Translations under genes and position numbers: made by a program
Origin: Symbiobacterium thermophilum IAM 14863
GTDB lineage: Bacteria; Bacillota; Sulfobacillia; Symbiobacteriales; Symbiobacteriaceae
Direction of reading: 5' to 3'
Assembly: GCF_000009905.1 (NCBI RefSeq)
Contig: NC_006177.1
Span: forward strand, 620,001 to 684,000
Length of the DNA stretch: 64,000 nucleotides
Notes under the pieces: generated by a model
Databases searched by the model: none
Told to the model about the DNA's origin: nothing
The model's input: the letters and a program-made list of their open reading frames with translations, nothing else
In this document: piece by piece, positions 206 to 57,942 of the stretch
Layout of the letters: the number at the start of each line of letters is the position of its first letter
Numbering within the stretch: position 1 is the first letter of the stretch

Positions 206-383
206 GTTTCTTGCTGTAGTGGCGCGGGAGTCGACCTGATCCTAGCACGTTCTGGTTCTCGGCGGCCTGCGTACGGGTCCCGGGGTGGACCCGCGGGCAC
301 CTCGGGGCCGGTGAGTGGGTGCGGAGCCAGCGGAACGGCCGGGGGCCGACTGCAGACCGAGTACAGGGCGGCGTGCACGGGAG

Positions 384-915
384 GGCTGTTCGAGGCGGAA
401 TGTGCATGGTGTTTCGGGTACCGAAGGTATTTTCCGCCTCGAACCGGGGGGAGCGGGGCCAGATGGTGGTGTGAGGCCTGCGGGGTAGGCGCAGGGGTGG
501 GCTGTTCGAGGCGGAATGTGCATGGTGCTTCGGGCACCGAAGGTATATTCCGCCTCGAACCGGGGGGGAGCGGGGCCGAATGGTAGTGTGAGGACTGTGG
601 GAGGAGGCGCAGGGGTGGGCTGTTCGAGGCGGAATGTGCATGGTGCTTCGGGCACCGAAGGTATTTTCCGCCTCGAACCGGGTGGGAGAGAGGCTGGATG
701 GTGGTGTGAGGACTGCGGGGGAGGCGCACGGGAGGGCTGTTCGAGGCGGAATGTGCATGGTGTTTCGGGTACCGAAGGTATTTTCCGCCTCGAACCGGGG
801 GGAGCGGGGCCGGATGGTGGTGTGAGGACTGCGGGGGAGGCGCACGGGGTGAGCTGTTCGAGGCGAAATGTGCACGGTGCTTCGGGAGCCGAATGTATAT
901 TTCGCCTCGAACCGA
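384..915. repeat. Hairpin array 1: five tandem long inverted repeats, period about 117 bp
   Basis: Five copies start near 384, 500, 617, 735 and 853. Each is about 62-67 nt with outer arms GTTCGAGGCGGAA and TTCCGCCTCGAAC (13-14 bp) and an inner stem CTTCGG/CCGAAG closing a 3-nt loop. Copies are separated by a conserved G-rich spacer of about 50 bp. Copy 5 has GGCGAAAT on the left arm and ATTTCGCC on the right: both strands changed, so pairing is kept. Copies 1 and 4 carry TTTCGG/CCGAAG, a wobble version of the inner stem. Periods of 116-118 bp break any reading frame, so open frames through here are not genes. The flanks 206-383 and 916-1133 hold nothing I can name. CRISPR is excluded because the spacers are near identical. 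Confidence 0.9.
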
Positions 916-22272: not shown

Positions 22273-23150
22273 CTAGGGGTTGCGGAAAGTGCACACTCGT
22301 TTCACTGACGGGGCGGTGGCGGAGGAAGGTCGGCAGGTGGGGCGGTGGTTGCCGTGGGGGAGTCCGTCTCACTCGATCGGCTGGTCGTCGTTGACACAGA
22401 AGTGCACTTTCCGAGGCGCCGTGTGCCACAAGGGATGCGGGGATTGCGGTGCCGGAAGCGCTCGTGGCCCAAGGGGTTGCGGAAAGTGCACATTCGTTTC
22501 ACTGACGGGGCGCTGGCGGAGGAAGGTCGGCCGGTGGGGCGGTGGTTGCCGTGGGGGAGGGTGCCTCACTCGGTCGGCTGTCCGTCGTTGACACAGAAGT
22601 GCACTTTCGGAGGCGCCTTGTGCCACAAGGGATGCGGGGATTGCGGTGCCGGAAGCGCTCGTGGCCCAAGGGGTTGCGGAAAGTGCACACTCGTTTCACT
22701 GATGGGGCGGTGGCGGAGGAAGGTCGGCAGGTGGGTCGGTGGTTGCCGTGGGGGAGTCCGTCTCACGCGGTCGGCTGGTCGTCGTTGACACAGAAGTGCA
22801 CTTTCGGAGGCGCCTTGTGCCACAAGGGATGCGGGGATTGCGGTGCTGGAGACGCTTGTGGCCCAAGGGGTTGCGAAAAGTGCACATTCGTTTCACCGGT
22901 CGGCGCGGGCGACGGGTGAGCCCTGGACAAGGCGGTGGCGACATGGCGACGAGCGACCAGCGGGGCGTGACAGGTGGCCGGGTGCCGCGATATCCGAGAA
23001 ACGATTGTGCGGGTCATGGGAATCGCATCCTGGTTCCGGCGAGGCTACGGGAACCCGAGTCGGTTTCTGCGGGTCGATGGAACCCGTGTTGGCAGACTTC
23101 GGGATCGCGATGTGGTGGGGATTGGTTTGACAAAAGGCATAAAGTTCTTG

Positions 23151-55261: not shown

Positions 55262-56026
55262 TTGGGTTCGGGATCCGCGACTGCCGCTTTGCAGGTGGCC
55301 GCAGCCGCCGGGGTCGTCCTGCTCCAGTCCGGGGCCGACGTGGCCCGGGTGGAGGACACCGTCTCCCGGATCCTCCGGGCGTACGGGGTGGGCGAGCCCG
55401 AGATCTACGCGACACCGACGGGCATCTTCATCAGCGTGGCCGACCAGGAGGCCACCGTGGTGCGGCGGGTGCGGAGCCGGACCATCGCCCTGGACCGGGT
55501 CAGCGCCGTGAACGCGCTGTCGCGGTCGCTCACGGCCGACCCGAAGGACCCGGCCGAGGCGCTGCGCCTGATTCGGGCGATCGGCGAGCAGCCGCCGCCC
55601 TTCCCCCGCTGGCTGGACGTCCCGGCCAGCGGCCTTGCCGCGGCGGCCTGCACGATGCTGGTGGGTGGCTCCCTGGCCGGGGTGCTGCCCGCCTTCCTCG
55701 CCAACCTGGTGGTGCAGGCCGGTGAGCGCATCTGTAGGTGGCTGGGGCTGCCCGATGCGGTCGCCGATCTGATCAGCGGGGCCAACGCCGTCTTCTGCGC
55801 GACCCTGCTTCACCGCTGGCTGGGCGTGCCGGTGGGCCCGGTGGTGGCCGGCGGGATCATGATCCTGGTGCCCGGCATCGCCTTCACCAACGCCCTGCGG
55901 GACGCGATCGCCGGCGATCTGGTGAGCGCCACGGCCCGGGGGCTGGAGGCCTTCGTCAAGGTCACCGCCCTCGCAGCCGGGGTGGGCGCCGCGCTGTATC
56001 TGGTCGGGGGAGGTGGGGTGCTGTGA
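55262..56026 (+). CDS. Threonine/serine exporter, N-terminal half (ThrE_1, YjjP-like)
   Basis: 254 residues. 'LLQSGADVARVEDTVSRILRAYG' and 'VYATPTGIFIS'-type sequence (here EIYATPTGIFISVAD) are the cytoplasmic signature of DUF1212/ThrE; five hydrophobic segments follow from residue 120, with 'GGIMILVPGIAFTNALRDAIAGDL'. It works with the next gene as a split amino-acid exporter. TTG 55262 lies 7 bp after GAGGTGA. The stop overlaps the partner's GTG start (GTGA). Confidence 0.86.
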   Translation: MGSGSATAALQVAAAAGVVLLQSGADVARVEDTVSRILRAYGVGEPEIYATPTGIFISVADQEATVVRRVRSRTIALDRVSAVNALSRSLTADPKDPAEALRLIRAIGEQPPPFPRWLDVPASGLAAAACTMLVGGSLAGVLPAFLANLVVQAGERICRWLGLPDAVADLISGANAVFCATLLHRWLGVPVGPVVAGGIMILVPGIAFTNALRDAIAGDLVSATARGLEAFVKVTALAAGVGAALYLVGGGGVL

Positions 56027-56436
56027 TCACCTATCCCTTCGCCTTCCTGACCTCGGCGGCCATCGCCGTCTCGTTCCGCTCGCCCCGCGGGGCCATCCTC
56101 TGGACCGGCCTCTGCGGCCTGGTGGGCTGGGCGGGCTTCGACCTGGCCCTGCGGGCCGGCGCCCCGGCCCCGGCCGCGGTGCTGCTCGGCGCGGTAACCC
56201 TGGGCACAGCCTCGGAGGTGCTGGCCCGCCGGCTGCACCAGCCGGCGATCCTCTTCGTCATCCCCGGCCTGTTCCCGCTGGTCCCCGGTATCATCGCCTA
56301 CCGGGGAATGCTGCTGCTGTCGCAGAGCCGGCTGGCGGAGGGGGCCTGGCAGCTGGCGCGGGCGCTGGCCATCGCGGGCATTCTGGCCGCCGGGCTGGCG
56401 ATCCCGCCGGTGTTGTTCCGGCGGTGGAGGCGGTGA
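56023..56436 (+). CDS. Threonine/serine exporter, C-terminal half (ThrE_2, YjjB-like)
   Basis: 137 residues, four hydrophobic segments, with 'ARRLHQPAILFVIPGLFPLVPGIIAYRGM' as the family block. It completes the exporter encoded by the preceding gene, with which it overlaps by 4 bp. In many bacteria the two halves are fused as ThrE. GTG 56023 after GGGGGAGGTGG. Confidence 0.86.
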   Translation: MITYPFAFLTSAAIAVSFRSPRGAILWTGLCGLVGWAGFDLALRAGAPAPAAVLLGAVTLGTASEVLARRLHQPAILFVIPGLFPLVPGIIAYRGMLLLSQSRLAEGAWQLARALAIAGILAAGLAIPPVLFRRWRR

Positions 56437-56569
56437 GCGCGTCGGCGCCGCTCTGCAGTGCGCTCCGCTGCGCCCGCGCCGTCCGCCTGCGGAGCTTGAA
56501 CGAAGCGGCCTGAGACGCAGACCGAAGTCGAGGCCCGGGTTCTGGGTGCTGACCGCGTTCGGGGTCTGC

Positions 56570-57363
56570 GCGCAGAATCTGAACCCATCTCCCGGGGGGA
56601 AGTACAGGTTTTGCGTGTCGACCCCCGTCCGGTGCGGAGTCTCCGCGCAGAACCTGAGGCGGTGTCCGGAGTTGCGGTTCAGGTTTTGCGCGTCTACCCC
56701 CGGGCGAAGCCGAGTTCCCGCGCAAAACCTGAAGCGGTGCCCCGAGGCGCGGTTCAGGTTCTGCGCGTCGACCCCCGGGCGAAGCCGAGTTCCCGCGCAA
56801 AATCTGAAGCGGTGCCCCGAGGCGCGGTTCAGGTTCTGCGCGTCGACCCCGCCTGATGCCGAGTTCCCGCGCAAAATCTGAAGCGGTGCCCCGAGGCGCG
56901 GCTCAGGTTTTGCGCGTCGACCCCGCCTGATGCCGAGTTCCCGCGCAAGATCTGAAGCGGTGCCCCGACGCGCGGTTCAGGTTTTGCGCGTCGACCCCCG
57001 GGCGAAGCCGAGTTCCCGCGCAAAATCTGAAGCGGTGCCCCGAGCCGCGGTTCAGGTTCTGCGCGTCTACCCCCGGGCGAAGCCGAGTTCCCGCGCAAAA
57101 TCTGAAGCGGTGCCCCGAGGCGCGGCTCAGGTTTTGCGCGTCGACCCCCGGGCGAAGCCGAGTTCCCGCGCAAAATCTGAAGCGGTGCCCCGAGGCGTGG
57201 TTCAGATTTTGCGCGTCGACCCCGTCGGGTGCCGAGTTCCCGCGCAAAACCTGAAGCGGTGTCCCGAGGCGCGGCTCAGGTTCTGCGCGTCGGTCCGCGC
57301 CTCGTGCGGAACTCCCGCGCAGAACCTGAAGCGGTCTCCGGAGTTGCGGTTCAGGTTCTGCGC
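56570..57363. repeat. Hairpin array 3: eleven tandem inverted-repeat units, period 74-75 bp
   Basis: Units begin at about 56570, 56645, 56720, 56795, 56869, 56943, 57018, 57093, 57168, 57242 and 57317. Each has arms GCGCAAAATCTGAA (or AACCTGAA) and TTCAGGTTTTGCGC around a 19-nt constant loop (GCGGTGCCCCGAGGCGCGG in the centre of the array), then a constant spacer of about 27 nt (GTCGACCCCCGGGCGAAGCC). In the unit at 57168 both arms read AAAATCTGAA/TTCAGATTTT, a fully paired variant. The end units (1, 2 and 11) are the most divergent. Mixed 74/75-bp steps break any frame. The flanks 56437-56569 and 57364-57576 hold nothing I recognise. Confidence 0.92.
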
Positions 57364-57576
57364 GTCGACCACCACCGGGCTATCCCCCTCGCCGTGAAAC
57401 CGGGGCCTGTGGCCAGGATTGGGCCTCAGCGCCCATTGCCGCGGCCTGCCCTTCTCTCGGGACGTGGCGAAGGCCAGGACGCCGGCGGCGCATCACCGGT
57501 CGGGCAGCGGTGGGAGGGGAGGGGCAGGAGGCCACCCGGTCCGGGTGGAAAGAATAAGTCCTCAGAGGTGAGTGCC

Positions 57577-57942
57577 ATGAAGCCTGAGGTGACCTTTTTC
57601 ACCTACCCCACGTGTACTTCGTGCAAGAAGGCCAAGCAGTTGCTTGACGAGAAGCCCGTAGAGGTGCACGAGCGCCGCTTCTTCAAGGAGAAGCCCACGC
57701 CCGAGGAGGTGCGCTGGCTGGCCGCCCGGCTCCCCGGGGGCGTGCGGGACCTCCTCTCGACCCGCAGCCGGCGCTACAAAGAGCTGGGGCTCGCGGAGCG
57801 GGAGCTGACCGACGACGAGCTGGTAGAGCTGCTGGCCGCCGAGCCGGGGCTCTGGCGGCGGCCGGTGGTCGTGCGCGGCGACCAGGTGGTGGTGGGCTAC
57901 GACCCCGCCAGCCTGGAGGAGCTTCTGCGCGTGGGGGAATGA
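57577..57942 (+). CDS. ArsC/Spx-family thioredoxin-fold protein
   Basis: 121 residues. 'FFTYPTCTSCKKAKQLL' has the CxxC of ArsC/Spx-like proteins, followed by 'ERRFFKEKPTPEEVRWLAARL' and 'LWRRPVVVRGDQVVVGYD'. It resembles YusI/ArsC-like reductases more than Spx because the linker to RNA polymerase is absent. A redox role is likely, the substrate unknown. ATG 57577 after GAGGTGA. glpP starts 13 bp after the stop. Confidence 0.84.
   Translation: MKPEVTFFTYPTCTSCKKAKQLLDEKPVEVHERRFFKEKPTPEEVRWLAARLPGGVRDLLSTRSRRYKELGLAERELTDDELVELLAAEPGLWRRPVVVRGDQVVVGYDPASLEELLRVGE

Follow-up and report, generated by a model that had tools for sequence, protein, structure and literature searches.

A helically phased tandem array in Symbiobacterium thermophilum as a candidate orphan site array for a Rep-like homing nuclease

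The window analysed here is a stretch of 64,000 bp (genome positions 620001-684000) from Symbiobacterium thermophilum IAM 14863, the genome of which is a single contig of 3,566,135 bp. Positions below are those of the window unless they are marked as genome coordinates. Three tandem arrays were examined in the window (Table 1). Array 3 was described in an earlier note, made from the sequence alone, as following thrE genes, and the Pfam matches of the upstream genes agree with that description. The intergenic stretch that contains it spans ~1,140 bp, against ~100 bp between the same genes in the congener G002, so array 3 was either gained here or lost in G002.

Array 3 is built of units that each consist of GCGCARAAYCTGAA, 19 bp, TTCAGRTTYTGCGC and then a further 27 or 28 bp. 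The units start at 56570, 56645, 56720, 56795, 56869, 56943, 57018, 57093, 57168, 57242 and 57317, giving a spacing of 75, 75, 75, 74, 74, 75, 75, 75, 74 and 75 bp, and the final arm stops at 57363. These start positions, with a TRF score of 1061, confirm the eleven units of 74-75 bp that had been reported in the note; nine of them have the core pattern exactly. The two arms of a unit are inverted 12-14-bp sites, C-GCGCARAAYCTG, with 19 bp between them, and the distance from arm start to arm start is 33 bp throughout (a 14-bp arm plus the 19-bp loop). Because the arms are symmetric, no strand can be assigned to the array. Full arm pairing is regained in one inner unit, that at 57168 (TCTGAA/TTCAGA), as had been noticed before. 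The loop had been called constant, which holds nearly for the inner units and only there; the spacer, also called constant, takes either of two lengths.

Differences from the consensus, counted per unit in order, are 12, 7, 2, 1, 1, 2, 2, 1, 2, 4 and 8. The ends have thus diverged (12, 7 and 4, 8) and the inside is homogenised (1-2), a pattern that supports the turnover from the middle of the array proposed in the note. An array at genome position ~700.6 kb points the same way, being orthologous in the congener G001 with three units here and four there. At that locus (L145 against L142), identity to G001 rises from 88% to 99% at the array, resembling a recombination junction.

Two further observations concern the immediate flanks of array 3. 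Directly before it, at 56440-56500, GCTCCGCTGCGC...CCTGCGGAGCTT resembles a repeat of G002 that forms arrays of 164-172 bp there (L121, L130). Downstream, the ArsC-like gene carries the Cys codon TGT at a position where both congeners have an in-frame TGA (L089, L090; ACGTGAACCTCGTG), which is probably a selenocysteine codon.

Table 1. Features of the window (window positions; a dot marks a feature without assigned strand)
Feature	Position	Strand	Remarks
Array 1	375..914	.	5 units, period 117 bp (11 turns), family b arms GAGGCGRAATGTGCA
Array 2	22275..22896	.	Period 197 bp
Two ThrE threonine/serine exporter genes	55262..56436	+	Pfam PF06738, PF12821; upstream context, outside the system
Intergenic stretch with array 3	56437..57576	.	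Empty site in congener G002 (gene pair ~100 bp apart)
Array 3	56570..57363	.	11 units, 74-75 bp; family a orphan array
Homogenised inner units of array 3	56720..57214	.	7 units, each within 1-2 differences of the 47-bp hairpin consensus
ArsC-family gene	57577..57942	+	Pfam PF03960; downstream context, outside the system

The arms of array 3 recur across the chromosome. A genome-wide search gave 67 exact hairpins and none for a reversed control pattern, which excludes chance. Pattern searches and genome stretches, which may miss diverged arrays, yielded 11 arrays in this genome with the arms of array 3 (family a) and 13 loci with a sister arm, GCRRAAWGTGCA (family b); some arrays contain forms intermediate between the two (L035, L040). 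Family b is also present in G001, and pattern searches found neither family in G002. With exact or one-mismatch patterns, family a was not found elsewhere in the order, nor family b in the phylum sample, outside the genus. The inner distance is 33 bp in both families, apart from one case of 32. Across arrays the arms are 91% identical and the loops 40%, where ~30% is expected by chance; loops and spacers vary from array to array and the arms stay fixed. The arrays lie in the chromosome and are rich in GC; orphan arrays are intergenic, with genes of unrelated function on either side in any orientation.

Two familiar kinds of repeat were ruled out. CRISPR arrays have unique spacers, whereas the loops and spacers here are homogenised within an array, and coding repeats are incompatible with 1-bp length changes within arrays and with periods of 64, 74, 85 and 106 bp, which break any frame. 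Near-identical group II intron reverse-transcriptase genes lie within ~0.8 kb of four arrays (L033, L035, L043, L133); the one at L043 matches the other copies only beyond the first ~567 nt of the element and may be 5'-truncated. The introns were rejected as the cause of the arrays, as they lie on differing sides of the four arrays and at differing distances. Other repeats were seen in these genomes: two G002 arrays with periods of 59 and 56 bp have a direct-repeat motif in common near TCTGTTCNNCTTCACTGTTGATG, with no gene linked to them (L125, L127), and a long 61-bp periodic region at ~722-729 kb of this genome, with the 16-bp palindrome CCCCACGCGCGTGGGG, is probably a CRISPR array (L092, L093).

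The hairpin shape of a unit can be read as an RNA stem or as a pair of inverted sites in duplex DNA. Using 101 units from 11 arrays, we compared arm pairing within units with pairing between arms taken from different arrays. The values were 0.851 and 0.849 on the plus strand (P=0.41) and 0.907 and 0.901 on the minus strand (P=0.26), and no covariation between the two arms of a unit was detected on either strand. The T-G closing pairs that had been pointed out do occur, but many units have A-C oppositions, which would be unpaired in plus-strand RNA. An Rfam search returned no family match in array 3, and no promoter-like or terminator-like site was found at 56400-57600. Each arm on its own fits C-GCGCA-R-AA-Y-CTG, the second arm varies freely at its two innermost bases, and the bases flanking the arms are variable save for one C, with GTAG absent. 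Since the arms fit one motif separately and without covariation, they look like two inverted protein sites and not like a selected stem. These comparisons point to the arms being candidate protein sites in duplex DNA, and array 3 is not best read as an RNA hairpin.

The spacing of the units follows the DNA helix. Arrays of families a and b have periods of 64, 74.7, 85.4, 106.6, 117, 126.7 and 138.5 bp, equal to 6, 7, 8, 10, 11, 12 and 13 turns of 10.64 bp. When the turn length was allowed to vary from 10.2 to 11.0, only 2 of 200,000 random sets fitted whole turns equally well (P ~1e-5). Within arrays, alternation of 74/75, 85/86 and 106/107 bp holds the mean near whole turns; the exceptions are one 140-bp step and distances of 172 and 182 bp between the units of two two-unit arrays. 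The rule is absent among 27 other arrays of these genomes. Whole-turn periods point to protein along one face of the DNA. If so, these steps are a rare case in which sequence alone seems to report the helical repeat inside the cell (~10.64 bp).

Gene calls beside the arrays revealed one protein family adjoining three arrays in two genomes, with seven copies in this genome, seven in G001 and six in G002. A tandem array lies 107-376 bp upstream of the start codon in 13 of the 20 genus members (14 counting a split gene), compared with 40 of 800 background 1-kb windows (5%; Fisher P 4e-12), and an array was present in 4 of 19 downstream windows of these genes (P 0.007 against upstream). In seven genus members TRF found no upstream array near the gene. 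Six of the seven copies in this genome have an upstream array if g4 is counted (L157, L215; genome ~3135349-3136530). An insertion of ~1.15 kb interrupts g4 at its 5' end; the g4 array precedes both the insertion and the original start and has arms in common with the G001 orthologue (L151). The insertion begins GTGTCGCG and is possibly a group II intron.

Particular site types go with particular genes. The gene g1 (346 aa; genome 2928435-2929472) lies ~215 bp downstream of its cognate family a array, and g2 (genome 1204838-1205812) is the cognate gene of family b; the two proteins are 68% identical. Family a arrays were found only in the genome that has g1, and family b arrays only in the two genomes that have a b-type gene. 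Among proteins with cognate arrays, arms are shared in the four most identical of 78 pairs; a weaker arm resemblance was seen in one pair of proteins that are not especially close (L160/L159, rank 22 of 78). One orphan array of G002 (L114) matches that of the gene in L150. The three arrays of the window show the same relation: array 1 matches the g2 cognate array, array 3 matches the g1 cognate array, and array 2 has an exact 28-bp sequence, CCGTCAGTGAAACGAATGTGCACTTTCC, in common with the array upstream of a further paralogue, g5 (genome 2703667). All three thus belong to one system, each by way of a different paralogue. Co-occurrence of genes and arrays, together with arms that follow the proteins, strongly suggests that each paralogue recognises its own sites, and protein-site coevolution could be tested directly in one genome that has seven paralogues and matching site types.

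Period was also compared for two other site types. The cognate and orphan arrays at L150 and L114, the arms of which are AACTCCATGAGCC, repeat every 181 and 170 bp (17.0 and 16.0 turns), which may extend the whole-turn rule to another paralogue. For array 2 and its g5 relative (L158) the periods are 197 and 250 bp, which are 18.5 and 23.5 turns of 10.64 bp; the two periods are five whole turns apart and offset by half a turn.

The gene family extends further than the arrays do. Other genera of the order have homologues too, as do 27 of the 398 Bacillota genomes sampled. TRF found no tandem array upstream of the homologues in G003-G005, and a tandem repeat was present upstream of one (L200) of the seven distant homologues examined from the phylum sample. 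An array is therefore not an obligate partner of the gene, given that seven genus members and most homologues outside the genus lack one, and because homologues beyond the genus are mostly array-less, the gene family looks older and the arrays a later elaboration centred on Symbiobacterium. Two array-less homologues in G003 (L182, L192) are preceded, at 128 and 225 bp, by single hairpins with loops of 16 and 18 nt, possibly an ancestral single-site state. Synteny downstream of the genes is kept between two species in three orthologous pairs (L158/L154, L153/L156, L157/L151), so that these genes have kept their place over species divergence, as RAYT genes do.

The predicted structure of g1 (pLDDT 88.9) contains two winged helices in residues 5-161. 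The best VIA-align alignments of this part were to RepE54 (Z 8.5) and pi initiators (Z 8.2), over ~150 residues at 4.0 and 3.6 A, where a Z near 8 can be reached by unrelated proteins; several of the aligned initiator structures are complexed with iteron DNA. The C-terminal domain, folded alone, reached a pLDDT of 90.8. Its best match was the catalytic domain of I-Bth0305I (Z 7.9, 93 residues, 2.9 A), with Vsr at Z 7.5, both scores being below the Z that VIA-align trusts. With Z values near 8, the fold assignments are suggestive and not proof, and Foldseek returned no PDB match under E 0.001 for either model. Profile searches divide the protein in the same way: in PHROGs, replication initiators match the N-terminus and homing endonucleases the C-terminus (E 9e-14 for a homing endonuclease profile against g5). 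Pfam gave HTH domains only, with HTH_36 best and a weak DUF2726, and neither RepA_N nor T5orf172 was among the Pfam matches of the partner proteins. Residues D222, E232, G235, Q237, H238, R257, D258 and K261 are invariant in an alignment of 19 members; of these, D222, E232, Q237, H238, D258 and K261 look catalytic. These results are suggestive of a protein with Rep-like tandem winged helices and a C-terminal homing-endonuclease domain of the EDxHD/Vsr-like type.

On balance, we consider array 3 to be probably an orphan array of duplex DNA sites that is served in trans, likely by g1, within a nuclease-array system resembling REP/RAYT. Binding, cutting, and a role of cutting in the turnover and spread of the arrays are what we infer. 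Two g1 molecules, or a dimer, would occupy the two inverted 12-14-bp sites, which start 33 bp from each other, and neighbouring site pairs, 6-13 whole turns off, would be bound on one face of the helix where the bound proteins could meet. The nuclease would nick or cut within or near the array, and repair that copies from sister units or from other arrays would homogenise, lengthen and shorten arrays and occasionally seed new ones. Several paralogues would each have a site type of their own, mostly with one cognate array and dispersed orphan arrays. Several points stand against this explanation: cutting at its own arrays would make the nuclease toxic, unless it were a nickase, weak or under control; seven genus members and most homologues outside the genus lack an upstream array; the fold scores are in a range open to unrelated proteins; the L160/L159 resemblance joins proteins that are not especially close; and array 2 and its g5 relative have half-integer turn periods. 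More tentatively, and as a claim that we hold at somewhat less than even confidence, the parts would make up a new class of self-maintaining system, in which phased chromosomal iteron-like arrays have their own Rep-like homing nucleases, are amplified, homogenised and seeded through repair, and coexist in several paralogue specificities.

Four other explanations were weighed against this one. The arrays could be regulatory, with the winged-helix proteins controlling their own transcription, the orphan arrays acting as regulatory sites or sponges, and the nuclease working elsewhere, for example on invading DNA. The place of the cognate arrays, 107-376 bp upstream of start codons, is operator-like, as are the single hairpins with 16-18-nt loops that precede some array-less homologues, and orphan arrays are intergenic. 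However, arrays reach ~1 kb and 14 units, far beyond what an operator needs; the orphan arrays lie amid genes of unrelated function in any orientation; array 3 is absent between the same genes in a congener; and the invariant nuclease residues suggest that the nuclease matters. We regard this explanation as unlikely, though it is the best of the four.

Alternatively, the proteins could form an origin-directed defence that cuts invading replicons at iteron-like sites, the chromosomal arrays being decoys, captured origins or a record of contact. Joining Rep-like binding to a homing nuclease is the domain logic of Odn, the cutting of which needs iterons (PMC8263062), and several paralogues of differing specificity per genome would suit defence. 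The sites nevertheless belong to the chromosome of the host itself, where types a and b together occupy about two dozen places, and PADLOC gave no defence-system match beyond winged-helix similarity, which makes this account quite improbable. Passive satellite DNA, in which tandem duplications spread by recombination with no protein reading them and the arms are hot spots for slippage or gene conversion, would account for homogenisation within arrays, changing unit number and diverged ends, all usual in satellites; we consider it very improbable, because the arms stayed fixed across arrays whose loops drifted almost to chance, the periods of seven classes keep to helical turns, and each type of arm goes with particular genes. 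The structured RNA proposed in the earlier note, a plus-strand hairpin transcript closed by G-U pairs, can hardly be right: single units do fold stably (-24 and -28 kcal/mol for two units) and T-G oppositions are present, but arm pairing shows no excess, A-C oppositions are frequent, neither an Rfam match nor a promoter-like or terminator-like site was found, and spacers quantised in helical turns are needless for RNA.

The preferred explanation, an orphan site array served by a Rep-like nuclease, has its closest parallel in arrangement in the REP, BIME and REPIN elements, which are short, palindromic and intergenic, in some cases tandem, and which are associated with RAYT (TnpA-REP) transposases (PMC3116915, PMC8266576). 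In both cases a chromosomal enzyme gene adjoins its own flavour of repeat and dispersed copies lie elsewhere, several enzymes per genome each have their own repeat type, and the genes are apparently vertically inherited. The partner here is a predicted tandem winged-helix protein with an EDxHD-like nuclease, whereas RAYT proteins are Y1 HUH transposases; the arms lack the GTAG foot; and what is apparently recognised is a pair of duplex DNA sites, in arrays with whole-turn periods. With neither a Y1 transposase as partner nor a GTAG foot, the system lacks the defining features of REP/RAYT that were tested. If our explanation is true, the same arrangement has been reached a second time by chemically unrelated means, with DNA recognition of the replication-initiator kind joined to a homing nuclease in bacterial chromosomes.

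The separate parts each have relatives. As in the iteron-binding Rep proteins (RepE of mini-F, pi of R6K), tandem winged helices are predicted in a similar arrangement, and repeated sites lie beside the gene in helical phase (families a and b). Unlike in those systems, a nuclease domain is attached, the sites form inverted pairs and not only direct repeats, and the arrays are chromosomal and mostly distant from the gene. The EDxHD/Vsr homing endonucleases, with I-Bth0305I, provide the best match to the predicted catalytic fold, and the conserved acidic and QH/DxxK residues and the PHROGs profiles suggest the same affinity; in contrast to I-Bth0305I, the gene here is free-standing, has a Rep-like DNA-binding part and is accompanied by cognate arrays. 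Odn of phage ICP1, which was the only relevant report found that joins iterons and homing endonucleases, combines RepA_N with a GIY-YIG-type T5orf172 nuclease and is directed by iterons to cut a rival's origin (PMC8263062). It resembles the protein predicted here in joining a Rep-type DNA-binding domain to a homing-endonuclease domain, but the two differ in their domain families, and the sites here are carried by the host chromosome, whereas Odn is phage-encoded. Our literature search found no description of these arrays or of this combination of domains and arrays, although the genome paper (Ueda et al. 2004) possibly mentions them. Provided that the proteins bind the arrays, the system looks categorically new, sharing parts with iteron/Rep systems, EDxHD nucleases and Odn and apparently being a member of none of them.
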